The notes under the pieces were generated by a model. That model searched no databases, was not told the DNA's origin, and worked only from the letters and a program-made list of their open reading frames with translations. Shown here piece by piece: positions 47,026-63,628 of a DNA stretch of 64,000 bases. Location of the stretch: NCBI RefSeq assembly GCF_021168555.1, contig NZ_JAJOZS010000009.1, positions 1-64,000 of the forward strand. Reading direction: 5' to 3'. How positions within the stretch are numbered: position 1 is the first letter of the stretch; every line of letters starts with the position of its first letter. The stretch is from Stenotrophomonas sp. MMGLT7. Lineage in GTDB: Bacteria > Pseudomonadota > Gammaproteobacteria > Xanthomonadales > Xanthomonadaceae. Both the position numbers and the translations under genes were made by a program.

Positions 47026-47147
47026 CTCCTCTTCCGCTTGCGGGGCCTGGACCCTCGGGGAAGGTTTCGCGGCGGCGCCGATAGGCGCATGAAAAGCGCC
47101 CTCATCCGCCCCTGCGGGGCACCTTCTCCCGCAGGCGGGAGAAGGTC
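47026..47147. repeat. degenerate MITE-like element, copy of the 48595 family
   Basis: Shares with 48595-48745, in the same order and orientation, a CCGCTTGCGGGGCC block at the left, a central GCCCTCATCCG block and a CACCTTCTCCCGC...GCGGGAGAAGG hairpin at the right. The left terminal repeat is degraded. The two copies flank the FatB-like gene as direct repeats. Confidence 0.6.
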
Positions 47148-47444
47148 CGGATGCCCGCGCCTCCGGCCACGACGGCTCCCCCGGAAGCGGACAGAAGCCA
47201 GTTTCCCGGTTTTCCTGTGTCGCGACGCAACGGCATCCGCGTCCCCATCCCCGCGTAGGGCGACGCATGTCCTGGGGCGGACGATCCCTCGCCTGCCCGG
47301 CCGATCGCGGGGCAGCCACGCATGCGCGCATGGCGACGGCACCGGTGCACTCCCCCCTCAGGCGTTCCGGCGCGGCGGGCATGCAGCAACGACGACGCCA
47401 ACGCATGGCTCGCGTTGCCCGCTGCCGGCCCGTATCATCGCCAG

Positions 47445-47459
47445 TGAAAATGATTCTCA
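47445..47459. promoter_or_regulatory. Fur-box-like operator for the FatB-like gene
   Basis: TGAAAATGATTCTCA matches the 7-1-7 Fur pattern TGATAATNATTATCA at 12 of 14 positions and is nearly palindromic. It lies 70 bases before the start codon of the orphan siderophore-binding protein gene, the expected place for iron repression. Confidence 0.65.
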
Positions 47460-47529
47460 GGACGCATCGGCCGCGATCGATGGTCCGATGCCTGCGTCGA
47501 CCTTCGCCAACGCCCCACGGGAGCCTTCC

Positions 47530-48522
47530 ATGTCCATCGCCACCCGCCGCCGCGCTCGCGCCCGGCTGATTCCCGGCCTCGTCGCGCTGCTGGCCTGCGG
47601 CCAGCTCCTTTCCGCGCCTGCGGCCGCCAACGAGATCCGCGTCGCGCATGCCCAAGGCGAGACGGTGCTGCCCGGCATCCCGCAGAAGGTCGCCGTGCTC
47701 AACCTGGCCGCGCTCGACGCCCTGCAGGCGCTGGGCGTCGAGGTCGCGGGCGTGCCGAAGGCGAACTTCCCGTCCTACCTGTCCGCCTACCGCGATCCCC
47801 GCCATCGCCAGGTCGGCAGCCTGTTCGAACCGGACCAGGCCGCGCTGCAGGCGCTGGCCCCGGACCTGATCGTGGTCGGCGGCCGCTCGCGTTCGGCCTA
47901 TCCGGCGCTGAGCAAGCTGGCGCCGACGCTCGACCTGGACAGCGGGGACGAGGGCTTCATCGACCGGGCGATCGCCAACGTGCGCACGCTGGGCCGCATC
48001 TTCGCGCGGGAAGAGCAGGCGCAGGCGCTGGCCGGGCAGTTGCAGGCCACCGTAGCCGACCTGCATGCCAAGGCCAGGTCCCAGGGCACCGGGCTGATGC
48101 TGTTCGCGGTGAACGGCAACATCAACGCGCAGGCGCCGGGTTCGCGCTTCGGCGTCGTCCACGAACTTGCCGGCATTCCCTCGGTGCTGCCGCGCCAGGA
48201 TGCCGAGGCCGGTCCCCGCCCCGCCGCCGGCTCGCCGGAGGCACAGGCCGCGCGGCGCAAGCAGGAGGCCATGCTGGCGCAGGCGCTGGCGGCCGAGCCG
48301 GACTGGCTGTTCGTGCTCGACCGCGACACCGCCACCGGCGGCGAAAGCAAGCTGGCCGAGGCGCTGGCCAGGCACCCGCAGATCGTCCAGAGCGCGGCGT
48401 GGAAGGCGCAGCGGGTGATCCACCTGGACGCGCCGACCTGGTACCTGGTCGGCAACGGTCCCGGCGCGATCCAGCAAAGCGCCGCGCAGATCGCCGCGGC
48501 GTTCGAGGCCGCCGAGCGCTGA
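47530..48522 (+). CDS. orphan siderophore-binding protein (FatB/CeuE-like)
   Basis: A periplasmic binding protein of the iron-siderophore family, 330 residues. The signal peptide (LIPGLVALLACGQLLSAPAAA) precedes the two-lobed fold with KVAVLNLAALDALQALGVE, PDLIVVGGRSRSAYPAL and a long helix. WYLVGNGPGAIQQSAAQI closes the second lobe. It resembles the FatB/VctP/CeuE group. No permease or ATPase gene is next to it, so it may feed another importer such as FepDGC, or work in sensing. A GGGAG lies about six bases before ATG 47530. A Fur-box-like site lies 70 bases upstream, and MITE-like direct repeats flank the gene. Confidence 0.88.
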   Translation: MSIATRRRARARLIPGLVALLACGQLLSAPAAANEIRVAHAQGETVLPGIPQKVAVLNLAALDALQALGVEVAGVPKANFPSYLSAYRDPRHRQVGSLFEPDQAALQALAPDLIVVGGRSRSAYPALSKLAPTLDLDSGDEGFIDRAIANVRTLGRIFAREEQAQALAGQLQATVADLHAKARSQGTGLMLFAVNGNINAQAPGSRFGVVHELAGIPSVLPRQDAEAGPRPAAGSPEAQAARRKQEAMLAQALAAEPDWLFVLDRDTATGGESKLAEALARHPQIVQSAAWKAQRVIHLDAPTWYLVGNGPGAIQQSAAQIAAAFEAAER

Positions 48523-48942: not shown

Positions 48943-49635
48943 CTACAGCGGGCGTTTTTCTTCCGGCTTGCCGTGTTGCCCCTGGGGCTGGCCGGCGGCG
49001 GGCCTGGCCGATGGTTGCGTTTGGTGCTGCGGTGCCTGTTGCGACGGCTTGGGCCCCTGCTGCGGACGCGCCGGCGCCTGCGACGGCCGCGCTTGCTGTT
49101 GCGGCCGCGCTTGCTGATGCGGTTGCGCCTGCTGCTGCGGACGCGACTGTGCTTGCGCCGGCCGCTGCGGTTGCTGCGGGCGTTGCTGCTGCGGACGCGA
49201 CGGCTGCTGCGGGCGTTGCGCGACCGGCGTCGGCCGATGGCCGCGCCAGCGCTCGCGGTCGTTGTACCAGGACCTGCTGCGGTAATGGTCGTTCCAGTAG
49301 CTGTCGAAGACGAAGCTCAGGACCGGCAGGCCGATCTGCGCGCCGTACCCGGACACGTGGACCCGGCGGCCGGAATAGTCGTAGTCCAGCAGCGCCGCCG
49401 ACAGCCAGCCGCGCTCGCCGCGCCAGGCGACGTCGCACCAAGACCAGTCGTTGATGCAGCCGTAGACCTGCACCGGCGAGCCGCCCGGGATCGTCGCGAT
49501 GCGGGGATAGCCCGCATCCGGACCCGCGCGCAGGTTGGCGTTGGTGTTGGTATAGCCCCTGTCCGACTGCGCCAGCGCCGTGGGCGCGGCCAGCAAGGCC
49601 GCCAGCGATAGCGCGATCCACCCGATCGATTTCAT
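48943..49635 (-). CDS. exported SH3-type protein with a Gln/Pro/Arg-rich tail
   Basis: A 230-residue protein. The signal peptide (LSLAALLAAPTALAQ) is followed by a bacterial SH3 domain over about residues 27-90 (NTNANLRAGPDAGYPRIATI, GCINDWSWCDVAWRGERGWL). A conserved-looking segment (IGLPVLSFVFDSYWNDHYRS) comes next, then about 100 residues of low complexity made almost only of Gln, Pro, Arg and Ala in short repeats. SH3-type domains often bind peptidoglycan; the tail could cross the periplasm or bind anionic polymers (inference). Repeat-rich DNA in the tail may vary in length between strains. Confidence 0.88.
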   Translation of the reverse strand: MKSIGWIALSLAALLAAPTALAQSDRGYTNTNANLRAGPDAGYPRIATIPGGSPVQVYGCINDWSWCDVAWRGERGWLSAALLDYDYSGRRVHVSGYGAQIGLPVLSFVFDSYWNDHYRSRSWYNDRERWRGHRPTPVAQRPQQPSRPQQQRPQQPQRPAQAQSRPQQQAQPHQQARPQQQARPSQAPARPQQGPKPSQQAPQHQTQPSARPAAGQPQGQHGKPEEKRPL

Positions 49636-50002
49636 GTTGCGGACTCCTGTGCACGAATGCGGCCATGGCCCCATGGCCGCCAGTAGCAAGCAATATCACG
49701 GGCAGACGCTGCGCGAGGTGAACCGGAGCATCGCTACGGATGGCGGTCGTGCCGTCGTCTCCGCGAAGGCGGACTGCCGTTCGGAGAAAACACCGGAGCG
49801 GGCAACCGTCAGCCGGAGCGGCAACGCCCAGGTTCGAAAAACTTGAACTCGTCGTCCCTGCGCAGGCGGGGACCCAGGGACTTTCGCGGTGGAATCAATC
49901 GGCTGCGGAATCTCGCGGCAACCGCCGTTCAAGGCGCAGGCGCTGGATCCCCGCCTGCGCGGGGACGACGAGCACGAAGATGAGGTCCGGTTTAAAGGGG
50001 AA
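49636..50002. other. 367-bp intergenic region with a long inverted repeat
   Basis: Between the SH3-type protein gene and prlC, both on the minus strand. It holds an inverted repeat (49849-49972) that could form a long hairpin close to the 3' end of prlC. The remainder, next to the SH3-type gene start, shows nothing recognisable. Confidence 0.65.
49849..49972. repeat. long inverted repeat with ~28-bp arms
   Basis: The left arm begins TCGTCGTCCCTGCGCAGG and continues GCGGGGACCCAG (49849-49877). The right arm (49943-49972) is its near-perfect complement, ending GCGGGGACGACGAG. The 65-base spacer is not coding. One arm resembles the left end of repeat copy B at 40171. This is a common proteobacterial intergenic palindrome type and may act as the prlC terminator. 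Confidence 0.75.
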
Positions 50003-52027
50003 TCAGCCCGCCATGCCGCTGTGCCGCAGCAGCGCGTCGATCCTCGGCGCGCGACCGCGGAAGGCCTGGAAGTTGGCCGCCGCGTCGCGGCTGCCGCCGC
50101 GCGCCAGCACTTCGCGGCGGAAGCGCGCGCCGGTCTCGGCGACCTGGTCTGGCGCTTCCTCGAAGGCGGCGTAGGCATCGGCGCTGAGTACCTCGGCCCA
50201 CTTGTAGCTGTAGTAGCCGGCGCCGTAGCCGCCGGCGAAGATGTGGTTGAACTGTTGAGGGAAGCGGTGCCACGCCGGCGGCCGGTTCACCGCCACCTCG
50301 TCGCGCACGCGTTCGAGCAGTTCCAGCACGTCGTCGCTGGCCGGGTCGAACTGGCTGTGCAGCAGCATGTCGAACAGGGCGAACTCCAGCTGGCGCACGG
50401 TGAACATGCCGCTCTGGAAGTTCTTCGCCGCCAGCATCCGGTCGAACAGCGCGCGCGGCAGTGGCTCGCCGCTGTCCACGTGCGCGGTCATCGCCCGCAC
50501 CCGCTGCCACTCCCAGCAAAAGTTCTCCATGAACTGGCTGGGCAGCTCCACCGCGTCCCACTCCACGCCGTTGATGCCGGCCACGCCCAGCTCGCCGACG
50601 CGGGTCAGCAGCTGGTGCAGGCCATGGCCCATCTCGTGGAACAGGGTGGTGACCTCGCGGTGGCTGAAGGTGGCCGGGCGGCCGTCGCCGCCCTTGCCGA
50701 AGTTGCACACCAGGTACACCAGCGGGGTCTGCACGCCGTCCGCGGTGTCGCGGCGGTTGCGGCAATCGTCCATCCAGGCGCCGCCGCGCTTGCCCTCGCG
50801 CGCGTACAGGTCGAGGTAGAACTGGCCCACCAGCCGCCCGTCGCCGTCGACCAGGCGGAAGAAGCGCACGTCCGGGTGCCACACCGGCGCGCTGTCGGGC
50901 TGCACCTTGAGCCCGTACAGGCCCTCGATCACGTCGAACAGCCCGCCCAGCACCTTGTCCTCGGTGAAGTACGGCTTCACCTCCTGCTCGGAGAAGCTGT
51001 AGCGCGCCTGCTTGAGCTTGTCGCTGGCATAGGCCAGGTCCCAAGCCTGGAGCGTGGGCAGGCCGAGTTCGTCGCGCGCGAACGCCTCCAGCTCGGCACG
51101 GTCGCGCTGGGCATGGGGCCGGGCGCGCGCGGCCAGGTCGCGCAGGAACTCCAGCACCTGCGCCGGGCTGTCGGCCATCTTGGTGGCGACGGAGTACTCG
51201 GCGTAGCTGGCGAAGCCCAGCAGCGCGGCCAGCTCGGCTCGCAGGGCGAGGATGCGGCCGATGTTGCCGCCGTTGTCCAGTGCAGGGTCCGGGCCGAGCT
51301 CGGAGGCCAGCACCGCGTTGGCGCGATAGAGCCGCTCGCGCAGCGCGCGATCGTCGGCATAGGCCAGCACCGGCAGGTAGCACGGCATCTGCAGGGTCAG
51401 CTTGTAACCGGGCTTGCCGTCCCTGTCGGCGGCGGCGCGGCAGGCGGAGAGCACGTCGGCCGGCAGCCCGGCCAGCTCGGCCGGGTCCTGCACGTACAGC
51501 GACCAGGCGTCGGTGGCGTCGAGCACGTTCTCGGAGAACTTCGCCGACAGCGACGACAGCTCCTCGCGGATGGCGGCGAAGCGTGCCTTGCCGGCCTCGT
51601 CCAGTTCGGCGCCACCGAGGCGGAAGTCGCGCAGCGCGTTGTCCAGCACCTTGCGCCGCGCCGCGTCGTAGCCGGCCGCTTCCGGCGCCGCCGCCAGCGC
51701 CTTGTACTGCGCATACAGCGCCAGGTTCTGCGACAGCGCGCTGCCGAAGCGGGTGATGCGCGGCAGGTTGGCGTTGTAGGCCTCGCGCAGGGCCGGCGAA
51801 TTGACCACGCCCTGCAGGTGGTTGACCAGGCCCCAGGCGCGATAGAGCCGCTCGGTGGCATCGTCCAGCGGCACCACGAACGCCTCCCAGCTCGGCGGCG
51901 CGGTCTCGGCGGTTTTCACCGCCGCCTCGGCCTCGGCCAGCAACCGGTCGATGGCGGGGCCGACGTGCTCGGGGCGGATCTGGTCGAAACGCGGCAGGCC
52001 GGAGAAATCGAGCAGGGGATTGGTCAT
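50003..52027 (-). CDS. prlC: oligopeptidase A (M3 family)
   Basis: A cytoplasmic zinc peptidase that degrades short peptides, including cleaved signal peptides. The 674-residue protein is close to the 680 of Escherichia coli PrlC/OpdA. The zinc site is HEMGH at residues 464-468 with the third ligand Glu in GVEWDAVELPSQFMEN (about 494); the Tyr-rich GGYGAGYYSYKWAE near the C-terminus is also typical. No signal peptide with ATG 52027; longer frames upstream overlap the REP region. It lies downstream of the X-S9 peptidase gene on the same strand, separated by 299 bases with a REP pair. Confidence 0.95.
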   Translation of the reverse strand: MTNPLLDFSGLPRFDQIRPEHVGPAIDRLLAEAEAAVKTAETAPPSWEAFVVPLDDATERLYRAWGLVNHLQGVVNSPALREAYNANLPRITRFGSALSQNLALYAQYKALAAAPEAAGYDAARRKVLDNALRDFRLGGAELDEAGKARFAAIREELSSLSAKFSENVLDATDAWSLYVQDPAELAGLPADVLSACRAAADRDGKPGYKLTLQMPCYLPVLAYADDRALRERLYRANAVLASELGPDPALDNGGNIGRILALRAELAALLGFASYAEYSVATKMADSPAQVLEFLRDLAARARPHAQRDRAELEAFARDELGLPTLQAWDLAYASDKLKQARYSFSEQEVKPYFTEDKVLGGLFDVIEGLYGLKVQPDSAPVWHPDVRFFRLVDGDGRLVGQFYLDLYAREGKRGGAWMDDCRNRRDTADGVQTPLVYLVCNFGKGGDGRPATFSHREVTTLFHEMGHGLHQLLTRVGELGVAGINGVEWDAVELPSQFMENFCWEWQRVRAMTAHVDSGEPLPRALFDRMLAAKNFQSGMFTVRQLEFALFDMLLHSQFDPASDDVLELLERVRDEVAVNRPPAWHRFPQQFNHIFAGGYGAGYYSYKWAEVLSADAYAAFEEAPDQVAETGARFRREVLARGGSRDAAANFQAFRGRAPRIDALLRHSGMAG

Positions 52028-52326: not shown

Positions 52327-55104
52327 CTAGAGTTGCAGGGTACTGCCCGGGAACCCGTCCGCGGGCGCCGGCTCCGCGCGGCCGCCGAGGTGGCGGGCTA
52401 GGAAGTCCTCCACCAGCGCGTTGAACGACATCCGGTTGGGCTCGCGCACGAAGCCGTGGCCTTCGTCCGGGTACAGCGCGTACTCGACCGCGATGCCGTT
52501 GCCGCGCAGCGCCGCCACCATCTGCTCGGACTCGGCCTGCTTCACCCGCGGGTCGTTGCCGCCCTGGGCGATCAGCAGCGGCGCGCGGATCGCGGCGGCG
52601 CGGTGCAGCGGCGAGCGCTCGCGCAGCAGCGCGCGGCCCGGCTCCGTCTCCGGGTTGCCCAGGGCGCGGTACTGCATGGCGCGGGCCGCCTCCCAGTACG
52701 GCGGGATCGACGCCAGCAGGGTCTCCAGGTTGGACGGGCCGACCACGTCGATGCCGCAGGCGTAGCGCTGCGGGTAGCGGGTCAGCGCCGACAGCACCGC
52801 GTAACCGCCGTAGCTGCCGCCGAAGATCGCCAGCCGCACCGGGTCGGCGATGCCGCGCGCGATCGCCCACTGCACCGCATCCTCCAGGTCTTCGTCCATC
52901 TTCCGCCCCCACTCGCCGTCGCCGGCGGCGATGAAGGCCTTGCCGAAGCCGGTGGAGCCGCGGAAGTTGACCGACAGCACCGCGTAGCCGCGGTTGGCCA
53001 GCCACTGGTGCATGCCGCTGTAGCCGAAGCCGTCGCGCGACCAGGGACCGCCGTGCACCAGCAGCACCAGCGGCAGCGGCCGGCGCGCGCGCAGCTCGCC
53101 GGCATCGGCCTCCACCGGCACGGTCAGGTACGAGACCAGCTTCAGGCCATCGCGCGACTCGATCACGGTGGACTGCATCCGCGCCAGATGCGCGTCGGCC
53201 AGCTGCGGGCGCAGCTCCAGCAGCCTGTCCAGCGTGCGGGCGCGGCGGTCGTACAGGTAGACCACGCCCGGCCGCACGTCGGACGAGGCCGAGACCAGCC
53301 ACAACGCCCCGTCCTCGGTGCGGCCGCCCAGCCGCCACTCGCCGATGCCCTGGGCATCGAGGAACGCGATGTCCGGGGCGATCGCCTCGTCCAGCACGTG
53401 CAGGCGGTAGCGCTCGTAGGTAGCGGCGTAGGCCAGCGGGTGGAAATCGTCCTGGTCGTTGATGGTGCCGCCAATGTCGGCGCGCGGATCCTCGGCCAGC
53501 ACGGTCGTCGCGCCGCTGTCGAAGTCGATGGCGACCAGCGCGGCGGTGTCGCGGCCGCGGCTGTCGCGGAAGTACAGGGTGCGGCCATCCACGCTGAAAT
53601 GGGTGGGACCGGAGCTGCGCGCGTCCTCGGCCGACAGCGCCAGCCACGGCTGCCACTGCCCGGCCGGGTCGCGGCGCAGCAGCTCGCTGCCACCATCGGC
53701 GGTGCTGCGCGAGGCCAGGCGGACGCGATAGTGGGCATCGGCCAGGTAACCGGAGAAGCCGGGATTCTCCTCCAGCAGTTCCAGCTCGCCGCTGCGCAGC
53801 GCCAGCCGGTACAGGTCCGGATAGCGGCGGTCGCGCTGGTTCAGCGTCACCAGCACGTGGTCCGGGTGGAACCGGCTGACACTGAACACACCGGCGCGCA
53901 CGCCCTGCGTCGCCGGCGTCAGCGCGCGCACCTCGCCGCTGGCGACGTCGGCGGCGAACAGGCGCCAGTTCTCGTCGCCGTCGCGGTCCTGCGAGAACAG
54001 CAGCAGGCCCGGCAGCCGGCTCCAGCTGAAGCCCTGCACCCCGCGGCGCGCGTCGAAGGTGACCTGCCGTGCCTGCTCCATGGCTGTGCGCGGAGCGGCC
54101 CAGATGTTCATCACTCCGTCGCCGTTGGCCAGCCAGGCCAGCCACTGCCCGTCCGGACTGATGCCGATGCCGGCGCGTGCCGGGTTGGCGAACAGGTGCG
54201 CGCGCGGGATCAACGGCGGCAAGGCGGGTTCGGCGGCGGCAAGCGCGGCCTGCAGCACCTCCACGGCCCGCCTCCACTGCACGGCTGCCTGCCCGCGACC
54301 ATGCGCCATGTGCGCCTTCAGCCGCGTCGCCTGCTGCGGATGCTTGCGCTCCAGCAGTTGGAACACGTCGATGAAGGCGCCATCGTAGTCCGCCGCGGCC
54401 TTGGCCTCGGCATGCAGCTGCCCCAGCAGCGCCTTGATGCGTTCGTCGTCGGCCTCGCCCCAGTCCTCGCGCGCCACCGCCGCGGCCGTCATTGCCCGCA
54501 GCCAGCCGTGCAGCGTGTCCGACACCGCCGTGCGCGAGCTGGCCGGATCCCAGGCCGCGGCCTCGATGCAGGCGCCGACCGCGGCGTCGGCGCTGTCCGG
54601 CGGCAGCGCATCGACCCGCGCGACCACATCGCGGCGCAGCTGGCGCCATTGCGCCGGCGCGATTTCGGCACCCGACAGCCGGCGCCGGTGCAGCCCGGCC
54701 ACCGCCGCCAGTGCCGCGGCCGCCGCATCGCCGGGATGCAGCGTGGCCAGTCCATGTTCGTCACCGTCCAGCAAGGCGAGCACGCAGCGGCTGCCGGCGG
54801 CGTCCGCATCGGCGCCCACCTCCAGCGCTTCCAGCAGGGCGGCTGCGCGCGCGATGCCTTCCGGCAGCGCCGGCGCCGCGACCAGCAGGCCGTCCAGCAG
54901 CAGCGCCAGCCACTTCGGCAGTCCGAAACGCTGCTCCCAGGCGTCGAGATCCTCGCCCTGCAGCAGGCTGCCGACCAGGCTGCCGGCCTCGCCGTTCCAG
55001 TGGATCGGGCGCGCCACCCAGCTTCCCTTGCGCTCCAGTTCGCGCAGGCGTTCGAGCAGCTGCTGCTTGCATGCGGCTTCGCCGCGATAGGCCGGCATGC
55101 GCAT
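52327..55104 (-). CDS. X domain fused to an S9 (prolyl oligopeptidase-type) peptidase
   Basis: A 925-residue protein. Residues 1 to about 285 are a domain I do not recognise (X), also present in the thioredoxin fusion at 55569-56846. From about 300 an S9 peptidase begins (LIPRAHLFANPARAG), with a WD-like propeller and a C-terminal hydrolase domain: LVHGGPWSRDG, the nucleophile Ser764 in GGSYGGYAVL, Asp851 in GGNDPRV and His883 in DEGHGF. No signal peptide is present, so it should be cytoplasmic, unlike many exported S9 enzymes. The start at 55104 overlaps the thioredoxin stop as TGATG. The frame upstream is antisense to or within the thioredoxin gene. It ends a five-gene operon; its substrate is presumably a peptide. 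Confidence 0.9.
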   Translation of the reverse strand: MRMPAYRGEAACKQQLLERLRELERKGSWVARPIHWNGEAGSLVGSLLQGEDLDAWEQRFGLPKWLALLLDGLLVAAPALPEGIARAAALLEALEVGADADAAGSRCVLALLDGDEHGLATLHPGDAAAAALAAVAGLHRRRLSGAEIAPAQWRQLRRDVVARVDALPPDSADAAVGACIEAAAWDPASSRTAVSDTLHGWLRAMTAAAVAREDWGEADDERIKALLGQLHAEAKAAADYDGAFIDVFQLLERKHPQQATRLKAHMAHGRGQAAVQWRRAVEVLQAALAAAEPALPPLIPRAHLFANPARAGIGISPDGQWLAWLANGDGVMNIWAAPRTAMEQARQVTFDARRGVQGFSWSRLPGLLLFSQDRDGDENWRLFAADVASGEVRALTPATQGVRAGVFSVSRFHPDHVLVTLNQRDRRYPDLYRLALRSGELELLEENPGFSGYLADAHYRVRLASRSTADGGSELLRRDPAGQWQPWLALSAEDARSSGPTHFSVDGRTLYFRDSRGRDTAALVAIDFDSGATTVLAEDPRADIGGTINDQDDFHPLAYAATYERYRLHVLDEAIAPDIAFLDAQGIGEWRLGGRTEDGALWLVSASSDVRPGVVYLYDRRARTLDRLLELRPQLADAHLARMQSTVIESRDGLKLVSYLTVPVEADAGELRARRPLPLVLLVHGGPWSRDGFGYSGMHQWLANRGYAVLSVNFRGSTGFGKAFIAAGDGEWGRKMDEDLEDAVQWAIARGIADPVRLAIFGGSYGGYAVLSALTRYPQRYACGIDVVGPSNLETLLASIPPYWEAARAMQYRALGNPETEPGRALLRERSPLHRAAAIRAPLLIAQGGNDPRVKQAESEQMVAALRGNGIAVEYALYPDEGHGFVREPNRMSFNALVEDFLARHLGGRAEPAPADGFPGSTLQL

Positions 55105-55436
55105 CAGGCTTCCAGGTGGCGGTCGATGAGCCCGGCGATGCGCGTCTTCGACGTCAACCCGAGCACGCGCTCGCGTTCGACCCCATCGACGAACAGGATC
55201 AGCGTCGGCAGGCCGCGCACGCCGAAGCGGGCGGCGACATCCTTGTTGTCGTCGGCGTTGACCTTGCAGACACCGACCTCGCCGGCGTACTGCTCGGCCA
55301 CGTCGTCGAGCACCGGCGACAGCTGCTTGCAGGGGCCGCACCACTCGGCCCAGAAATCCACCAGCACCGGGCCGCGCGCCTGCAGCACGTGTTGGTCGAA
55401 GGTGGCGTCGGTGGCGTGTAAGACATGGTCGGACAT
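55104..55436 (-). CDS. thioredoxin
   Basis: A 110-residue classical thioredoxin: FWAEWCGPCKQLSPVL with the CGPC active site, VCKVNADDNKDVAARFGV, and the cis-proline in RGLPTLILF. No signal peptide, so it is cytoplasmic. It lies between two X-domain genes; its stop shares a base with the X-S9 start (TGATG), so the two are translationally coupled. Together with that X domain it mirrors the upstream thioredoxin-X fusion, suggesting that a duplicated thioredoxin-X gene was split here. Whether it also serves as the general cellular thioredoxin is unknown. Confidence 0.93.
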   Translation of the reverse strand: MSDHVLHATDATFDQHVLQARGPVLVDFWAEWCGPCKQLSPVLDDVAEQYAGEVGVCKVNADDNKDVAARFGVRGLPTLILFVDGVERERVLGLTSKTRIAGLIDRHLEA

Positions 55437-55568
55437 GGGAATCTCCTGGTGATGCGGTGCTTGGATGGATCTGTTGGCGTCGGCTGCCGGCTCTGGCGTT
55501 GCCAGTCGCTCCGGCGTCAGCCCGGAGAGCCGCCGGGCAAGCCGGGCGCTACGGCAAGGGTTTGGCGG

Positions 55569-56846
55569 TCATGGCGCGGGCGGGGCGGCTTCGAGCAGTT
55601 CGACCAGGCGGGCGCGCAGCCTGTCGGCGCGCGGGGTTCCCAGCTCCGGCATCCGGCGCCAGAACCCATCGTTCAGTCGCATCCAGTCGGCGTTCTCGCC
55701 TTCCCATTGCGCACGCAGCTGCCGCAGCTGCTCCTGGTCCAGGTTGCCCTCGGCATCGCGCCTGGCACGCTGCTCGAACCAGTGGAAGCGCAGCTCGTCG
55801 GTGGCGATCTGCTCGCCGCTCCAGCCCTGGTCGACCTGGAGGATCTGGTGCTGCAACTGGATGCCCATCAGCAGCAGCGCACCGACCCATGCGCCCTCGT
55901 CGCCCGGTTCGGGCAACGGACTCAGGCCGGCGATCATGTCGGCGAAGGCGTACTGCGCGCCTTTGCGCGGATCGCGCGGGTTGCGCAGCGGCTGCACCAC
56001 CTCGCGCAGCGCGTGCCAGTGCGCCCGCGGCACCGCCTCGCCGGCACGCTCGGCGCGGCGCAGCCGCAGCCAGCCCTCGCGCAGTTCCACCACCGCCGGG
56101 TCGTGCTCCAGCAGCGTCGGCCAGTCGATGCTCGCGTCGTCCAGCCAGGCCTCGAACAGTGCGGGGGCGACGCCGTCCACGTCGCTGCCGGGACGGATCG
56201 CGCCGAGCACCTCGGTCACGTGCTCCTCGACCATGACGCCGGCGAAATGCAGGGCGCAGCCCAGCGAGAACGGCAACCCGCTCACCCGCTCGAACACCTG
56301 CCCGTTCTGGCTGTGCACCAGCGCCGCGGAAACCGTGCCCTTGCCTTCATGCCAGAACGGGAAGCGCGAGACCACGACCTCCCCGGTTGCCGCATGCCGG
56401 CGCAGGCGCTGCATCAGGAAGTCCTTCAACTCCGGATCGCCGTAGAACGCACCGCCCAGCGATGCCGCGGCCGCCGCATCGTCGGCCGCCGTAGCTGGGG
56501 CAGTGGCAGGGGCAGTGGCCTGAATCCCGTGCCGGCCCAGCCACTGGCGCAGCTGCGGCAGCGTCTGGGTGCCGGTATGGCGCACCTGCTCCTCGCCATC
56601 CTTGAACAGCACCAGCAACGGAATGCTGCGCACGGCCAGGCGCTCGGCCAGCTGCGGATAGGCCTGGATATCGAGCTTGGCGATGCGCAACGTGCCCTCG
56701 TACTCGGGCGCCAATCTTTCCAGCAGCGGCGACAGCGTGCGGCACGGCACGCACCAGTCGGCCCAGCAATCGAGCAGTAGCGTGCCACCGGCGCGCAGCT
56801 CGTCCTCCAGCGAGTTGGCGGTGACATCAACGATGGGAACGGACAT
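55569..56846 (-). CDS. thioredoxin fused to a C-terminal X domain
   Basis: A 425-residue cytoplasmic protein. Residues 1-108 are a thioredoxin fold with the active site WCVPC (31-35) and cis-Pro at about 76 (RSIPLLVLF). After an Ala/Thr/Pro linker, residues about 135-425 form domain X, starting LKDFLMQRLRRHAATGEVVV. The X domain shows matching stretches with the N-terminus of the S9 protein at 52327 (for example RRAERAGEAVPRAHWHALREVV against RRRLSGAEIAPAQWRQLRRDVV, read as aligned halves). ATG 56846 has AAGGA five bases upstream; ATG 56852 is too close. It follows the ABC transporter gene by 59 bases. CVPC is an uncommon variant of CGPC. Confidence 0.9.
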   Translation of the reverse strand: MSVPIVDVTANSLEDELRAGGTLLLDCWADWCVPCRTLSPLLERLAPEYEGTLRIAKLDIQAYPQLAERLAVRSIPLLVLFKDGEEQVRHTGTQTLPQLRQWLGRHGIQATAPATAPATAADDAAAAASLGGAFYGDPELKDFLMQRLRRHAATGEVVVSRFPFWHEGKGTVSAALVHSQNGQVFERVSGLPFSLGCALHFAGVMVEEHVTEVLGAIRPGSDVDGVAPALFEAWLDDASIDWPTLLEHDPAVVELREGWLRLRRAERAGEAVPRAHWHALREVVQPLRNPRDPRKGAQYAFADMIAGLSPLPEPGDEGAWVGALLLMGIQLQHQILQVDQGWSGEQIATDELRFHWFEQRARRDAEGNLDQEQLRQLRAQWEGENADWMRLNDGFWRRMPELGTPRADRLRARLVELLEAAPPAP

Positions 56847-56905
56847 GGACATCCTTGCGGTATCGATAAGGGAGGTGGAACGTCGCCCAGAGCGTGCTAT
56901 GCGCC

Positions 56906-58618
56906 TCAGGCCGGTGCCGCCGCGGCGGCACCCGTGCCTTCGAGCTCGAAGACGCGGTCGTGGAAGGCTTCCAGTTCGCGGCGATGGGCGACGCTGACCA
57001 ACGTGCTGCCGGGCAGCCGTTCCAGCAGCGTGGCGTACAGCGCCTGCTCGGTGTCCGGATCGAGCGCACTGGTGGCCTCGTCCAGGAACAGGAAGTCCGG
57101 CCGATGCAGCAGCGCGCGGGCGATCGCCAGGCGCTGCTGCTCGCCGCCGGACAGCTTCTGCTGCCAGCGGTCGCGCTCGCCCAGCCGTTCGGCCAGCGCC
57201 GGCAGGCGCACTGCCACCAGCGCCTCGCGGCAGGCCTCGTCGCTGAACGCATGGGGCTCGCCGGGATAGCACAGCGCCGCCTTCAACGAACCGTAGGGGA
57301 TGTAGCTGCGCTGCGGCAGGAACATCAGCCGGGCCGAGGCGGGCAGGCTCACCCGGCCACGGCCGTAGGGCCAGATGCCAGCGACCGCACGCAGCAACGT
57401 GCTCTTGCCGGCGCCCGAGTTGCCACGGATCAGCCAGCGCTCGCCGCGGCCAAGTTGCAACGGTGGCAGCGTCGCAATCGACTCGCCCGCTGGGCGCGCC
57501 AGCGTGATCGGGCCGGTGGCGATCTCCTGTCCGGTGATGCGCTCAAGCTCGATTCCCCGCGGCATGTCCCGGGCGTGGGCGATTGCCGCAGACAGATCGC
57601 GCAGGCGATTGCCCACCGCGCGCCACGTGGTGAAGCTGACGTAGGCCTGGGTAAAAAAGGACAGGCTGCCGTAGAGCGTATTGAAGGCGCCCGTGATCCG
57701 GGTCACGTCGCCCAGCGAGATCGCGCCGGACAGATAGCGCGGCAGGGACGCCAGCGTCGGCAGGATCGATCCGACCTCCACGTACATGTCGCGTGCCAGC
57801 ATCATCTTGCAGGTCCGCAGCATGATGGCCAGCCAGTTGCCACGCACGTCGTCGAAGCTGCTGAGCAGGCGCTGGCGCTCGCGCTCGCCGCCATCGTAGA
57901 AGGCGACCTGCTCGGCATTCTCGCGCAGTTGCATGCCGCGGTAGCGGAAATCGGCCTCCACTGTCTGGCGGCGATTGAACAGGCCTATCAACTGGCGGCC
58001 GGCCAGGTGCGAGACCAGCAGGCTGCCCAGCGCATAGGCATAGGCCAGGTACACCATGTAGCCCGGGATGGCGAAATGGCGGCCGCCGACATCGAACTCC
58101 AGCGTGCCCGACAGCCCCCATAGCACCGCGGTGAAGGTGACGGTGGTCACCACGACCCGGATCGTTCCCAGCGTCAGGCTCAGGGTCAGCTCGACGAACA
58201 TCTCGATGTCCTGGGAGATGCGCTGGTCGGCATTGTCCACGGAGGCATCGCGTTCGATGCCGTAGTAGGTGCCGTGCTGCGTCCAGGCATCCACGTACCA
58301 GCGGGTCAGCCAGCTGCGCCACTGATACTTGAGCCCCTCGCTGGTCAGGTAGGCCGACAGCAACCGCACCATCACCGCCAGCAGGCCGGCACACAGCGCC
58401 AGCGCCAGCACCTGCCACAAGCCGTCCCATTGCCGGCCGACCATGGCATCGACGACGAGGCCATCCAGCTTGTTGGACCACACCGCGATGTAGACGCCGC
58501 CGAACATCAGCGTCAGCTGCAGCGCCAGCAGCAGCCAGCCCTTCCAGCTCTGCCGCGACTTCCAGTAGGGAAGGATGATCTGCATTACGCCGGGCCGGGC
58601 ATTGGCCGAGGAATTCAT
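56906..58618 (-). CDS. YddA/SbmA-type ABC transporter (membrane and ATPase in one chain)
   Basis: A 570-residue half-transporter. Residues 1 to about 330 are the membrane domain of the ABC_membrane_2 (SbmA/BacA/YddA, ABCD) family: six helices and the family stretch YDGGERERQRL, close to the conserved EAA-like region. The ATPase domain follows, with Walker A GNSGAGKST, LPQRSYIPYGSL, signature LSGGEQQRLAIARAL and Walker B FLFLDEATSALD. The family handles peptides, lipids or cobalamin; YddA and FusD are encoded beside TonB-dependent receptors and peptidases. Here the receptor gene is directly upstream and thioredoxin/peptidase genes downstream. ATG 58618 is the start; TTG 58621 precedes it. Direction of transport is not certain. 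Confidence 0.9.
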   Translation of the reverse strand: MNSSANARPGVMQIILPYWKSRQSWKGWLLLALQLTLMFGGVYIAVWSNKLDGLVVDAMVGRQWDGLWQVLALALCAGLLAVMVRLLSAYLTSEGLKYQWRSWLTRWYVDAWTQHGTYYGIERDASVDNADQRISQDIEMFVELTLSLTLGTIRVVVTTVTFTAVLWGLSGTLEFDVGGRHFAIPGYMVYLAYAYALGSLLVSHLAGRQLIGLFNRRQTVEADFRYRGMQLRENAEQVAFYDGGERERQRLLSSFDDVRGNWLAIMLRTCKMMLARDMYVEVGSILPTLASLPRYLSGAISLGDVTRITGAFNTLYGSLSFFTQAYVSFTTWRAVGNRLRDLSAAIAHARDMPRGIELERITGQEIATGPITLARPAGESIATLPPLQLGRGERWLIRGNSGAGKSTLLRAVAGIWPYGRGRVSLPASARLMFLPQRSYIPYGSLKAALCYPGEPHAFSDEACREALVAVRLPALAERLGERDRWQQKLSGGEQQRLAIARALLHRPDFLFLDEATSALDPDTEQALYATLLERLPGSTLVSVAHRRELEAFHDRVFELEGTGAAAAAPA

Positions 58619-58709
58619 CAAGGCTTTTTCCTGTCGTCACAGCGACAAGCCTGCCACCGCGCTTGATGCGCAGCGGCAGGCTTGCCGGAGATTGCTGCAA
58701 GAGCGATGG

Positions 58710-61073
58710 TCAGAAGCTCTTGCGCCATGTCAGGGCCACCGTTCGCCCTTCCTGGACCGGAACGTACATGGTCGACGCCGAGTAGCCATAGAGCTGGCGG
58801 TCGAACAGGTTCTTCACGCCCAGCCGCAGCGACCAGTCCGGCTGCTGGTAGGAGATGCCGGCATCCACCCGCGCCGCGCCCGGCGCAACCACCGATGCGC
58901 TGGTGGTCCCCAGGCGGGTCCAGCTGTAGCCGGTGACGCCCAGCGACACGCCGAATCCCTGCAATCCGCCAGACTGGAAGTCGTAGGTGGACCACACGCT
59001 GGCCTGGTGCCTGGGCTCGGCCGCATAAAGCGTGGTCGAGTTGCCGGTATCCTCCGACTTGGCATAGGTGTAGTTGAAGATCAGGTTCAAGCCCGGCAGC
59101 AGCTGCCCGGCGGCCTCGGTCTCGAAACCGCGCACCCGCTTGGCTTCGCGCACGTCGTAGCAGGCGCCGGCGCTGTCGTACTGCAGGGTGTTGGACTGGT
59201 CCAGCTGGTAGACCGCGGAGGTCCACGCGAAGGCCCCGTCGCGGCTGTTGACCTTGATGCCGGCTTCCTTGTTATTGGTTTCCATCGGCGGGAAATCGCC
59301 GTTGCCGCCGGTACCGCAGTTCTTCACGGTGACGAACTGCGGCAGGAAGCCCTCGGCGTAGCTCGCATACAGCGAGACGTTCGAAGTGAGGTTGTAGACC
59401 AGCCCCACGTTCGGCGTGGTCTGCTCCATGCGGCTCTTGATGGTCAAGGTGGTCCTGCCGGACTGCACGTACCCCGTGCTGGCGGGACCACTCTCGTAGC
59501 GGGTCCTGCGCACGCCAAGCAGTGCATGCCAGTCGCCGAAGCTGATCAGGTCCTGGGCGAACAACGCATACTGCTGGGTGGTCGAGTCGTAGTACGAGTA
59601 CAGCGTGTCGGCATTGCGCGGCAAGGCGACGAAGTCGTATTGCTCGGCCTGGTAGACCGGCACCGGGATGTTGCTGCCCGAGTAGCTGACCACGTTGCTG
59701 GCCATGCGGGTGTGATTGAAGCCGGTCGACAGCTTGTGTGCGAACGGCCCGGTATCGAAGGTCATGCGCAGGTAATGATCGCCGCTGGTGGTGCGAAAGT
59801 CCGAAACGGTGCTTCCTGGCGCCATCGAGATGATCATGTCCGCCGTGCTCTGCGGGAACTGGGGCGTGTATATCTGCAGATCCTGGGTGCTGAGCGTGCG
59901 CTGCATCCGGCTCACCAGGGTCAGCCAGGGCGCAAACGCATGCTCCACGCTGTAGAACAACGCCTTGTTGCGTACCCGCATGCCGTCGGTGGCGGCGCCG
60001 AGGCGCATGCTGGGGATCGGCTGGATGCCGGCCAGGCCGAAGGTATAACGATTCTGCGGCGAATACTGGTTGTCGTAGGAAAGGCCAACCAAGGCGTCGG
60101 TGGCCTCGTCCTTCCAGCGCAGTTCGGCCAGGACGGAATCGGATTCGCGACCATCGAAGCCGGCATCGTTGCGATCGGCGCGCGCGGACGAGCCGATCAG
60201 CCGGTAGCTCAGCCGCTTGTCGTCGGTGACTGCACCGGACAAGTCGAGCGAGCCGCTCTTGTCCGCGTGCGAGCCGTACTGCAGGCTGAGGTCGCGGATG
60301 GTCTCGGCCGAGGGCTTCTTGGTCACGATGTTGACCGCACCGCCGAGCGATTCGCCCCCGGAGAGGATGGCCTGCGGCCCCTTGAGTACCTCGACCCGCT
60401 CGACGTTGGCGATATTGACAGTGCCCGAGTACGGATTGGTGACGCCGTTGGACAGCGTGCTGGTCTGGGTGAAGCCGCGGATGGAGTAGCTGGGCAGGCC
60501 CTGCGCACTCTCGCGGGTCACCACGCCCGAGACGTTCTGCAGCACGTCCTGCACCGACTGCGCCTGCTGGGTCTCGATCACCTTGGCAGTGATGACGGTG
60601 ACCGACTGCGGCACGTCCAGCAGGTCGCTGCCGCTGCGGGTGGCGGTGTCCGAACTGGAGGCCTTGAACCCGGTCTCGGCCTCGTCGCGGGTGGCGACGA
60701 CGTGCAGCGTGTCCAGTTGCGGCACGAACACCACCAGTTCGCCGCTGGCGTTGCTGGTCATGGTCAGGCGGCTGCCGGCGATCACTTCCTGCACCGCCGC
60801 GACCGCATTGCGGCGCCCGACCAGGGCCGGGGCCTGTTGCCCCTGCACGTCCCGGGCCTCGAAGCGGACCGGCCTGCCGCTGATCCGCGCGATCTCCTTC
60901 AGCGTCGTGGCCAGCGGTCCGGCGGGAATCGCGTAGTCGTTGCCGGCTTCGGCCACGACCGGCGCGACGGCGGACGTCTGCGCACGGGCCGGCTGCAGCA
61001 TCGCCGCGAACAGCGCGGCACACAGCAGCGAGAGTGGAGCACGGCCCGTGATCGGGCAATGTGTACTGAACAA
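58710..61073 (-). CDS. TonB-dependent siderophore-type receptor with N-terminal STN domain
   Basis: A 787-residue outer-membrane receptor. The signal peptide (LSLLCAALFAAMLQPARAQ) is followed by an STN domain (about residues 45-115, AIPAGPLATTLKEIARISG) as in FecA/FpvA-type transducers. The plug has DVPQSVTVITAKVIE, VTRESAQGLPSYSIRGF and RVEVLKGPQAILSGGESLGG, and the barrel ends in GRTVALTWRKSF. The start codon is TTG 61073 with AGGAG seven bases upstream. It opens the operon with the ABC transporter, thioredoxin and S9 genes. No sigma/anti-sigma (FecI/FecR) pair is nearby to receive an STN signal; a MocR-type regulator is divergent instead. Confidence 0.92.
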   Translation of the reverse strand: MFSTHCPITGRAPLSLLCAALFAAMLQPARAQTSAVAPVVAEAGNDYAIPAGPLATTLKEIARISGRPVRFEARDVQGQQAPALVGRRNAVAAVQEVIAGSRLTMTSNASGELVVFVPQLDTLHVVATRDEAETGFKASSSDTATRSGSDLLDVPQSVTVITAKVIETQQAQSVQDVLQNVSGVVTRESAQGLPSYSIRGFTQTSTLSNGVTNPYSGTVNIANVERVEVLKGPQAILSGGESLGGAVNIVTKKPSAETIRDLSLQYGSHADKSGSLDLSGAVTDDKRLSYRLIGSSARADRNDAGFDGRESDSVLAELRWKDEATDALVGLSYDNQYSPQNRYTFGLAGIQPIPSMRLGAATDGMRVRNKALFYSVEHAFAPWLTLVSRMQRTLSTQDLQIYTPQFPQSTADMIISMAPGSTVSDFRTTSGDHYLRMTFDTGPFAHKLSTGFNHTRMASNVVSYSGSNIPVPVYQAEQYDFVALPRNADTLYSYYDSTTQQYALFAQDLISFGDWHALLGVRRTRYESGPASTGYVQSGRTTLTIKSRMEQTTPNVGLVYNLTSNVSLYASYAEGFLPQFVTVKNCGTGGNGDFPPMETNNKEAGIKVNSRDGAFAWTSAVYQLDQSNTLQYDSAGACYDVREAKRVRGFETEAAGQLLPGLNLIFNYTYAKSEDTGNSTTLYAAEPRHQASVWSTYDFQSGGLQGFGVSLGVTGYSWTRLGTTSASVVAPGAARVDAGISYQQPDWSLRLGVKNLFDRQLYGYSASTMYVPVQEGRTVALTWRKSF

Positions 61074-61360
61074 TTCGCTACTCCTAACTGTGGGGGAGGA
61101 CGATCGCAGCAGCGGGCAACGGTGGTGTCATGCAGCGGGGAGCCAGGGCGGATCCCGCAGCATTTCCTTGTGACATAAGGATGTCCGTGTCTTTGCCGTT
61201 ACAAGAAACAGCGGACCGGGTTCGACTATGCGCAGGCGACACGGCGATGGGGCATACAATTTCTCGCGCTCTTAACGAAACTGTTATGATCAATTACCTC
61301 TAACGATTTCCGATCCCACGAGTATCCGGTCGTTTCCGCGGCGGCTCATGGCCTTTGCTC
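61074..61360. promoter_or_regulatory. divergent control region between TBDR operon and MocR regulator
   Basis: 287 bases between the receptor and regulator start codons. The half nearer the regulator is AT-richer (GGGGCATACAATTTC, then AACGAAACTGTTATGATC) and probably holds promoters and regulator sites for both directions. MocR proteins usually bind direct repeats in such regions. I could not pick a convincing -35/-10 pair or a Fur box. Confidence 0.4.
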
Positions 61361-62845
61361 ATGTCGACATCGCCCAAGCACATGCGCGCAGCACGCGCCA
61401 ACGCCGCCTCGGGTAGCGCCAACGCCGCCACCCGCGTCGACCGGATCGCGCAATCGCTGGCCGAGCGCATCCGCAGCGGGGAACTGGCCGCGGGCACGCG
61501 GCTGCAGTCGGTGCGCAGCCTCGCCCGGCAGGCCGGCACCAGCATCCAGACGGTGCTGCGCGCCTACGACAAGCTGGTCGCGCAGGGCTACCTGGAGGCG
61601 CGGCGCGGCTCCGGCTTCTACGTCAGGTACAAGGAACGCGTCGCCACCTCAGCCGAGCCCTCCTGGCTGCAGGCCAAGCCTGCGGCCAGCGACTGGCGCC
61701 GGCTGCTGCATGCCGACCGCCCCTACGAGCGCCGGATCGGCTGCGGCACGCTGCCCGAGGCCTGGCTGGACAAGCCGGCGCTGGCTTCGGCGATCCGCGC
61801 CATCGGCGCCACCTCGCTGCAGTCGCTGGCCGGCCACGCCGACCCGCATGGCTACCTGCCGCTGCGCCAGCAGCTGCAGCTGAAACTGCTGGAGCACGGG
61901 ATCGAAGCCGATCCGCGGCAGATCGTGACCTGCGCGGGCGCGGCGGACGCGCTGCACCTGTTCGTCTGGTCGCATTTCCATCCGGGCACCTACGTGCTGC
62001 TGGAGGACCCGGCCCCGTTCCTGCACGTGCAGCGCATGCTGGCCAGCGGCCTGGAGATCGTGCGCGTGCCGCGGCTGGCCGACGGTCCCGACATCGAGGC
62101 CATGCGCGAGGTCTGCGCCCGGCACCGGCCGCGCGCATTCTTCTGCAGTTCGCTGCTGCACAACCCCACCTCGTCCAGCCTCTCGCCGGGCAAGGCCTTC
62201 CAGATCCTGCAGCTGGCCGAAGAATTCGACCTGACCGTCGTCGACGACTGCACCTACGCCGACCTGCTGCCGTCTTCGCCACTGGTCCAGCGGGTTCCGC
62301 TGGCGGCGCTGGACCAGTTGCGCCGGGTCGTCCACGTCGGCAGCTTCTCCAAGACCCTGGCCGCGGGCCTGCGGGTGGGCTTCCTCGCCGCCAGCCCCGC
62401 CTGCGTGGAGCGCATCGCACTGCACAAGTCGGTCGGCGCGATCAACAGCCCCGTCCTCGGCGAACGCCTGGTCTACCACCTGCTGTCCCAGGGCAAGTAC
62501 CGCCACCACTGCGAACGGCTGCAATCGCGCCTGCACGCGTGCCGGGAGCGGCTGATCGCACAGCTCGCGGCGCGCGGCTTCGTGCCGGAGCCGACCGCCT
62601 CTGGCATGTACCTGTGGCTGTCGCTGGGCCAGGGCGTGAACGGCAAGGCGATCGCGCAGGCGCTGGACCGGCGCGGCCACGTCGCCGCGCCGGCCCAGGA
62701 CGTCTTCAGCCATTCACCGCGCAACACCTCCCACATGCGCCTGAATGTCGCCGTGGCCTGCGACAACCCGGTGCTGGACATCCTGGCCGAGGAAGTCGCC
62801 ATCGCCCGGCAGGCCGGCGACGGCGGCACGCGAACGCGGCGCTGA
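61361..62845 (+). CDS. MocR/PdxR-type transcription regulator (GntR HTH + aminotransferase)
   Basis: A 494-residue regulator. An N-terminal GntR winged helix (about residues 25-95: DRIAQSLAERIRSGELAAGTRLQSVRSLARQ, given here as two consecutive stretches of DRIAQSLAERIRSGELA and GTRLQSVRSLARQ) is followed by a fold-type I aminotransferase domain with LLHNPTSSSLSPGK, VVDDCTYADLLP and the PLP lysine in SFSKTLAAGLRVG. Such proteins bind PLP and often an amino-compound effector. ATG 61361 is used (TTG 61355 possible). It is divergent from the TBDR-ABC-thioredoxin-peptidase operon and is its likely regulator, by position only. Confidence 0.92.
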   Translation: MSTSPKHMRAARANAASGSANAATRVDRIAQSLAERIRSGELAAGTRLQSVRSLARQAGTSIQTVLRAYDKLVAQGYLEARRGSGFYVRYKERVATSAEPSWLQAKPAASDWRRLLHADRPYERRIGCGTLPEAWLDKPALASAIRAIGATSLQSLAGHADPHGYLPLRQQLQLKLLEHGIEADPRQIVTCAGAADALHLFVWSHFHPGTYVLLEDPAPFLHVQRMLASGLEIVRVPRLADGPDIEAMREVCARHRPRAFFCSSLLHNPTSSSLSPGKAFQILQLAEEFDLTVVDDCTYADLLPSSPLVQRVPLAALDQLRRVVHVGSFSKTLAAGLRVGFLAASPACVERIALHKSVGAINSPVLGERLVYHLLSQGKYRHHCERLQSRLHACRERLIAQLAARGFVPEPTASGMYLWLSLGQGVNGKAIAQALDRRGHVAAPAQDVFSHSPRNTSHMRLNVAVACDNPVLDILAEEVAIARQAGDGGTRTRR

Positions 62846-63100: not shown

Positions 63101-63628
63101 ATGACATTCCAATCCATCCAGACCCAGCCGGGCGTGGCAGCCCAGCGCGACCCGCAGACCACCGGATTCGTCTTCAACCACACCATGCTGCGGGTCAAGG
63201 ACATCGTGAAGTCGCTGGACTTCTACACGCGCGTGCTCGGCTTCCGCCTGATCGACCGCCGCGAGTTCCCCGAGGCCGAGTTCAGCCTGTACTTCCTCGC
63301 GATCCTGCCGCCGCAGGCGCCGCTGCCCGAGGACGATGCCGAGCGCCGCACCTGGATGGCCGGCATACCCGGCGTGCTCGAGCTCACCCACAACCACGGC
63401 AGCGAGCGGCAGGAAGGCCCGGTCTACCACGACGGCAACAGCGATCCGCGCGGCTTCGGCCACATCTGCGTGTCGGTGCCGGACATCGAATCGGCCTGTG
63501 CCCGTTTCGAGCAGCTGCAGGTGCCGTTCCAGAAGCGCCTGAGCGATGGCCGCATGAAGAACATCGCCTTCATCAAGGATCCGGACGGCTACTGGGTGGA
63601 GATCATTTCCAACACTTCGCGCGCATGA
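63101..63628 (+). CDS. gloA: lactoylglutathione lyase (glyoxalase I)
   Basis: Converts the methylglyoxal-glutathione adduct to S-lactoylglutathione. The 175-residue protein carries the metal ligands in the usual places: His in FNHTMLRVKD, Glu in LELTHNHG, His in FGHICVSVPD and Glu in GYWVEII. FYTRVLGFRL and KRLSDGRMKNIAFIKDPDG are glyoxalase I signatures. The length suits the longer gammaproteobacterial/eukaryotic-type enzyme. Cytoplasmic. ATG 63101 begins a short non-conserved leader before the fold. No operon partner is apparent. Confidence 0.96.
   Translation: MTFQSIQTQPGVAAQRDPQTTGFVFNHTMLRVKDIVKSLDFYTRVLGFRLIDRREFPEAEFSLYFLAILPPQAPLPEDDAERRTWMAGIPGVLELTHNHGSERQEGPVYHDGNSDPRGFGHICVSVPDIESACARFEQLQVPFQKRLSDGRMKNIAFIKDPDGYWVEIISNTSRA

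Follow-up and report, generated by a model that had tools for sequence, protein, structure and literature searches.

Two neighbouring genes on the minus strand of a 64,000-nucleotide stretch of Stenotrophomonas sp. MMGLT7 (contig NZ_JAJOZS010000009.1, positions 1 to 64,000; hereafter the window) raise the question of what a long region without annotation, here termed X, does beside a thioredoxin in one protein and a peptidase in the other. The genes encode a thioredoxin-X fusion of 425 amino acids (55569..56846) and an X-S9 fusion peptidase of 925 amino acids (52327..55104). Reading along the minus strand, the gene order is TonB-dependent receptor, ATP-binding cassette (ABC) protein, thioredoxin-X, free thioredoxin, X-S9 and M3 peptidase, with a MocR regulator gene divergent. 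X is a real, shared and unannotated domain tied to thioredoxin and peptidase. As a whole, the operon may be a TonB-dependent peptide import-and-dismantling system, reductive and cytosolic, a reading to which a probability of about one half was given.

The first-pass annotation had proposed that the two proteins share an unannotated domain of ~280 residues. This was borne out, with X measuring ~290 residues and present in both the thioredoxin fusion and the S9 fusion. The four segment pairs picked out earlier were all in register in one Smith-Waterman alignment, the exception being two or three residues at the end of the fourth. The alignment scored 101, a value reached by 0 of 1000 shuffles of one sequence (mean 40, standard deviation 6.8). 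Composition-adjusted BLASTP of the two window copies alone gave a non-significant expect value (E) of 0.47, which leaves the kinship unsettled on this pair of sequences alone. Profiles of 5 X domains of the thioredoxin-fused type and 5 of the S9/free type matched at 98.2% probability and E 5.5e-14 with a score of 100, against 14.8 for a reversed profile and 22.8 for the best of 100 column shuffles. Kinship between the types holds for the first ~215 residues (204 columns, ending near 215-218); the last third was aligned only inside profiles containing both types, and a full-length match was seen only with a profile that includes both window copies. The Paraburkholderia X matched the S9/free type (98.8%), but against the thioredoxin-fused type taken alone it reached only 24.9% (E 8e-4), which speaks against a uniform kinship. 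On the basis of the profile comparison and the X tree, copy A (55572..56459, minus strand) was placed in the thioredoxin-fused lineage and copy B (54235..55104, minus strand) in the S9/free lineage.

No Pfam family exceeded its cut-off in X, the best being OGG_N in the Klebsiella protein (E 0.003, 18.1 bits, cut-off 23). Likewise, no NCBIfam or PHROG model was above cut-off in X (best PHROG E 0.09). Proteins that carry X are currently annotated as 'hypothetical protein' or 'thioredoxin domain-containing protein'. A profile of 7 X rows (A4) had no significant match among PDB sequences (best E 0.07). AlphaFold2 was run on the thioredoxin-X protein as a single sequence, with a predicted local distance difference test score (pLDDT) of 39.5, and on X from the two window copies, which gave a weak, all-helical model (pLDDT 55.4, predicted template modelling score 0.52). 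Foldseek of the X model against the PDB returned nothing at E<=0.001, and the best Z score with VIA-align was 6.8, inside the helical background. A viral structure library yielded one outlier, an uncharacterised Caudovirales protein with a probability of 0.99 but E 0.053, and the X model is too weak for weight to be put on this match.

Only residues G59, G95 and W151 are identical in all 25 X domains and the best-kept polar residue, D7, is retained in 20, so the conservation pattern suggests binding more readily than catalysis. X could itself be an enzyme, acting on an imported peptide or on a modified residue in it; in favour of this, the family is old, the domain measures ~290 residues, and the genes around it are almost always the same. 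An enzyme with no polar residue identical throughout the family, and with a weakly modelled fold that would be all-helical, was considered quite improbable. An adaptor or holdase was preferred for X. We infer this role because, besides lacking an invariant polar residue, X is fused to the reductase or to the peptidase and lies between them in unfused operons.

X is rare and scattered. With copy A as lone query, none of 199 other genomes of the order and 13 of 368 other genomes of the class gave matches, the latter all weak (E 0.0017 to 0.043); the sole one of these 13 inspected (locus L014) was efflux-like by eye and was rejected. The whole thioredoxin-X protein, searched against genome contigs, returned three thioredoxin matches and nothing else. 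The family was first revealed by tblastn of plasmids, which returned a thioredoxin-X protein from a Klebsiella plasmid (27.5% over 91%, E 3e-14) as well as stand-alone X genes from three other plasmids, two of Sphingomonas and one of Novosphingobium. A weak Paraburkholderia match (E 0.03) was a thioredoxin-X gene adjoining the same ABC gene and TldD/TldE genes, and one further plasmid tblastn query matched only its own source. Profile A4 matched 9/398 genomes of the phylum at E<=0.01, the window genome included. Genomes G729 and G703 among these matches were dismissed as weak and without system genes, and G929 holds a prophage-like relative. With centre genomes counted throughout, profile A5 (12 rows) matched 6/220 genomes of family f118, 8/149 genomes of family f193 (G1245 as a partial match, E 2.7e-7), 4/259 genomes of the window's order and, at E<=1e-4, 6/398 genomes of the phylum. 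The f118 match in G993 (E 7.7e-4) was likewise dismissed as weak and without system genes.

The gene neighbourhood of X was compared across 25 loci, comprising the window, 5 plasmid records and 19 genome stretches no longer than 20 kb. Locus genes were labelled by similarity to window or locus proteins and with the X profile, some labels being self-matches. The weak matches without system genes at L048 (G929), L049 (G729), L050 (G703) and L072 (G993) were kept outside the table. Thioredoxin is fused or adjacent to X in 24 loci, a TonB-dependent receptor is present in 23 and an SbmA-type ABC protein in 20; the ABC gene was not seen in L030, L044 and L045, where it may lie outside the stretch examined. 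Peptidases occur in 20 loci (TldD/TldE in 10, S9 in 7, M3 in 6, M16 in 3, some loci having two kinds), with TldD/TldE or M16 replacing S9 in 13. Sigma factor plus FecR genes were counted in 12 loci, ExbB/ExbD in 11, TonB in 10, TrxB in 5 and a PALP-type pyridoxal phosphate (PLP) enzyme in 2, together with a MocR regulator near X in 9 (that in L073 probably accidental) and Lrp in 4. S9 in L070, M16 in L088 and the PLP enzyme in L029 were confirmed by Pfam, as were those regulators that were put to the test. Depending on the genome, X is fused to thioredoxin or to S9; where the genes are unfused they run thioredoxin, X, S9, which is the order to be expected of an X placed between thioredoxin and peptidase. 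The CxxC motif is retained in 24/24 thioredoxins of the tree.

Three loci have further content. In L028 (Klebsiella plasmid NZ_CP055068.1, 11451-36275) the system is surrounded by insertion sequences, and the plasmid is typed as mobilizable. This locus has its own TonB-ExbB-ExbD genes, FecR, a sigma factor, two ABC proteins and a pair of M16 peptidases whose N-termini are not clearly signal-like. The PALP-type PLP enzyme follows the operon at L043:12362-13636 and at L029:15904-16980, the latter annotated as cysteine synthase family; its substrate may be an unusual amino acid that digestion of the peptide sets free.

How two copies of X came to lie in one operon was addressed with trees. The gene order, thioredoxin-X followed by free thioredoxin and X-S9, is what had led the first-pass annotation to propose a tandem duplication of a thioredoxin-X unit within the operon, with one copy then split and fused to a peptidase. 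In the trees of both X (25 rows, G1245 excluded) and thioredoxin (24 rows, less resolved) the window copies fall in different old lineages, and the duplication was rejected. Forcing the window X copies as sisters lowered the log-likelihood by 122 (approximately unbiased test, p-AU 9e-5), placing the window thioredoxin-X copy in the X-S9 clade cost 103 log-likelihood units and was also rejected, and the pairing of the window thioredoxins was rejected at p-AU 0.003. G1245 is in the locus table and in neither tree, while G716, lacking the thioredoxin, is in the X tree. Copy A joins nine thioredoxin-X proteins (support 100/99), eight from family f193 genomes and one from a Klebsiella plasmid; copy B joins three X-S9 proteins (100/99), with free X genes as the next group (100/97). 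The nearest X-S9 operons, in G141, G1333 and G769, run TonB-dependent receptor, ABC protein, thioredoxin, X-S9, have no thioredoxin-X gene and give a single X match each, and in G987 and G1109 thioredoxin, X and S9 are three separate genes. Under the model used, these results leave duplication within the operon a very slim chance.

Given these trees, sister operons and separate genes, unfused genes probably represent the old state, from which the fusions arose later, and the window operon, as placed by its two copies, combines two lineages. The simplest history, on a tree whose root is unplaced and in which four rows are on long branches, would comprise an adjacent thioredoxin and X pair, fusion or splitting of thioredoxin-X several times over (the tree calls for 3 changes) and one X-S9 fusion, both lineages having met in the window operon through transfer or old paralogy. 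The thioredoxin-X gene has a GC content of 0.70 and 0.88 at third codon positions, and this base composition gives no sign of foreign origin.

A single operon is predicted for the window genes from their order, common strand and spacing, the gaps being 59, 88 and 132 bases with one overlap and 200 to 300 bases ahead of the M3 gene. No sigma-70-like promoter was found in 49.8-63 kb. The following coordinates are all on the minus strand. The receptor (58710..61073) is of the siderophore-receptor type, with PF07715 and PF00593, 301.6 bits on TIGR01783 (cut-off 223.5) and a hydrophobic N-terminus; by phmmer against the PDB at 1e-10 the best solved chain was FhuA and the next FoxA, and no chain named FusA or YddB was among the 31 PDB chains listed. 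The ABC protein (56906..58621) has an SbmA/BacA-type membrane domain and a fused ATPase, with PF06472 (170.1 bits, cut-off 24.4), PF05992 (89.1 bits, cut-off 24) and PF00005 all above cut-off, a Walker A motif and LSGGE; its best solved chain is 6tqe. In the thioredoxin-X protein (alternative ATG at 56852) thioredoxin occupies residues 6-103 (PF00085, 2.3e-20) and X residues about 131-425, the latter recognised by its profile match. The protein scores only 82.3 bits on TIGR01068 (cut-off 96.8), its CxxC being present as WCVPC. The free thioredoxin (110 amino acids, 55104..55436) reaches 115.9 bits on the same model and has WCGPC, and its stop shares one base with the X-S9 start, in TGATG. The S9 part of X-S9 was identified by PF00326 (2e-43) with GGSYGG, NDPRV and GHG motifs. 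The M3 peptidase (50003..52027, start picked by eye at MTNPLL) is oligopeptidase A-like, with PF01432 at 7e-137 and HEMGH; on PRK10911 it scores 794.7 bits, under the cut-off of 927. The catalytic motifs of S9 and M3 are intact, as are the motifs of the ABC protein. A simple hydropathy scan showed a hydrophobic N-terminus in the receptor and none in the S9 and M3 peptidases or in either thioredoxin.

The proposed import-and-dismantling system would work as follows. The FhuA/FoxA-like receptor would carry a peptide through the outer membrane and the SbmA/BacA-type ABC protein would move it into the cytosol, where thioredoxin, free and X-fused, would reduce its disulfide or disulfides. X would bind the opened peptide and hold it between reductase and peptidase, and the S9 and M3 peptidases, or TldD/TldE or M16 in other genomes, would digest it, the gain being amino acids or a bound ligand. 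X is probably part of a system for peptide import, reduction and digestion, because thioredoxin, a TonB receptor, an importer-like ABC protein and changing peptidases recur alongside it. The families of the receptor and of the ABC protein argue for peptide import. SbmA imports antimicrobial peptides, SbmA and BacA take in peptides and hydrophilic compounds, and cobalamin, bleomycin and Bac7 enter through BacA, for which there are signs of export too (PMC13316013 and PMC10960864, in part). Cytosolic digestion is suggested by the hydropathy results together with the intact motifs, and disulfide reduction appears a natural step, since almost all loci have thioredoxin, five have TrxB and the 24 thioredoxins of the tree retain CxxC. 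The earlier suggestion that X is a module presenting peptides to both thioredoxin and peptidase may hold, as the fusions on either side and the unfused gene order agree with a module working between the two. The direction of transport, the peptide substrate, the reduction of disulfides by thioredoxin and the role of X as adaptor rather than enzyme were all inferred from sequence.

Several observations weigh against this proposal. The X model is weak (pLDDT 55.4) and matched to no known fold. Five of the 25 loci (L047, L068, L071, L074 and L075) have no peptidase within the stretch examined, and L075 has thioredoxin-X without the rest of the system. In G716, X adjoins a different TonB-dependent receptor and is without thioredoxin. 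The M16 peptidase of Sphingomonas NY01 has a hydrophobic N-terminus, so digestion there may be periplasmic. Nor do the loci count as independent: G141 and G1333 are nearly identical, five thioredoxin-X-TldD-TldE operons are closely related, and the labels of several loci relied on query proteins drawn from those same loci. Finally, the receptor belongs to the siderophore-receptor class and the cargo could therefore be an iron chelate. A stand-alone X at L047:9607-10536 (plus strand) lies beside a different kind of TonB receptor, and the system thioredoxin, ABC protein and peptidase were not found in its 20 kb.

Under iron acquisition the cargo would be a ferric peptide siderophore or a small iron protein, thioredoxin would help to free the iron and the peptidases would clear the carrier, as in the Fus/PqqL-type proposal. 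The TIGR01783 type of the receptor, its best solved relatives and the sigma/FecR and ExbB/ExbD genes at 12 and 11 of the loci favour this, and clusters of TonB-dependent receptor plus protease for iron have been described for Fus (PMC6793856, in part). The MocR and Lrp regulators may hint instead at amino acids, and a thioredoxin with up to two peptidases would seem to exceed the needs of iron release. No Fur-box-like site was present in the window at <=3 mismatches to a consensus, which is weak evidence. Iron acquisition was judged a possible but rather unlikely explanation. Fus of Pectobacterium and YddB/PqqL of E. coli resemble the window in that a single cluster encodes a TonB-dependent receptor, a processing peptidase and an inner-membrane transporter (FusD); such systems occur sporadically in Proteobacteria. 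FusC and PqqL are periplasmic M16 enzymes, whereas the window has S9 and M3 peptidases without signal-like N-termini in the same simple scan, plus thioredoxin and X; a FusC-type M16 is absent from the window and M16 was counted in 3/25 loci. FusC is missing from 12/24 Fus clusters, and other proteases lie beside some FusA homologues (PMC6793856, in part). The words thioredoxin, disulfide, TldD, YddA, SbmA and prolyl are absent from the main text of that paper.

The cluster could also serve scavenging of, or immunity against, ribosomal peptide antibiotics such as lasso peptides, being built like isopeptidase lasso clusters; biosynthetic genes are not part of this reading. FhuA is the receptor of one lasso peptide, and the window receptor resembles FhuA. 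Lasso isopeptidases (AtxE2, SpI-IsoP) are prolyl-oligopeptidase-like and are clustered with a GntR-like regulator, a TonB-dependent transporter and sigma/anti-sigma pairs (PMC9266682, in part). The window S9 matches the lasso isopeptidase model NF033523 at 1e-22, but with 80.8 bits it is far under the cut-off of 400, and Dpp5 scores alike. The window also adds the SbmA/BacA-type ABC protein, thioredoxin and X, and the replacement of S9 by TldD/TldE or M16 elsewhere counts against a dedicated isopeptidase. This explanation was regarded as unlikely.

Among chaperedoxins, CnoX/YbbN has an N-terminal thioredoxin fused to a C-terminal domain and combines holdase and redox roles (PMC6282202, in part). 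The C-terminal part of CnoX consists of tetratricopeptide repeats (TPR), whereas X is found in an import operon and no TPR family was detected at E<=1 in the window protein and four relatives. SbmA/BacA-like transporters share the PF06472/PF05992 membrane domain, with a fused ATPase as in 6tqe, and the window ABC protein differs in being tied to a receptor, thioredoxin, X and peptidases. The absence of a FusC-type periplasmic M16, the sub-cut-off isopeptidase score and the lack of TPR set the window apart from Fus, the lasso clusters and CnoX. Import by receptor plus peptidase is already known, and the cytosolic thioredoxin-X module appears to be new; no description of the thioredoxin-X-peptidase-receptor combination was found in the open-access literature, as judged by titles and abstract openings.

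The first ~130 residues of X match prophage, phage and plasmid proteins. A 4-row profile of G929 L048, Xanthomonas phage phiXaf18 QFR59591 and Roseicitreum and Roseomonas plasmid proteins matched the 25 X rows at 97.6% (E 2.8e-12), with a score of 82 against <=22 in 60 shuffles and 11 when reversed. Taken singly, the L048 protein matched at 95.5% and the phage protein at 25.0% (E 8e-4). These relatives, which are uncharacterised 'hypothetical' proteins, lie at L048:9621-10283 (minus strand), L051:2965-3819 (plus strand), L089:2908-3801 and L090:2001-2654. A GC..GC motif is conserved among them and is replaced by different residues in X, and the L048 and phiXaf18 (L051) proteins have Ala-rich repeat tails. 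No thioredoxin or receptor was seen near them in the stretches examined. Searches of phages with X by tblastn gave no match or E 3, and viral contigs, scanned with the L048 protein and with X from NY01 and from the window, yielded no match. To our knowledge these relatives have no known function.

We know of few cases in which TonB-receptor import of peptides or proteins with a dedicated peptidase has been worked out. The best known concern periplasmic M16 peptidases and iron (PMC6793856, in part). As a tentative extension, held with well under even confidence, the loci may represent a reductive route for dismantling peptides that has not been described before, carried as a mobile cassette by plasmids and by the chromosomes of alpha-, beta- and gammaproteobacteria. 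Within this cassette X would be a docking hub from a phage/plasmid domain superfamily, joined to thioredoxin and to the locally fitting peptidase (S9, TldD/TldE, M16 or M3), and would serve the uptake and eating of disulfide-locked peptides from rivals or hosts. A cytosolic form of such import, with a shared domain linking thiol reduction to interchangeable peptidases, would explain the use or detoxification of disulfide-locked peptides, and a family annotated as described above would gain a function. Testable partners are offered by X with thioredoxin and X with S9.

The divergent MocR-type regulator gene (61355..62845, plus strand) encodes GntR and aminotransferase domains (PF00392 and PF00155), and is followed downstream by a glyoxalase I-like open reading frame at 63101-63628 (plus strand), recognised by eye. 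On the other side of the operon, ~1.5 kb past the M3 gene, an open reading frame at 47038-48522 (plus strand) resembles a periplasmic siderophore-binding protein, by eye only. A small protein encoded at 48943-49689 (minus strand) has a Gln/Pro-rich tail with tandem repeats at 49052-49219.

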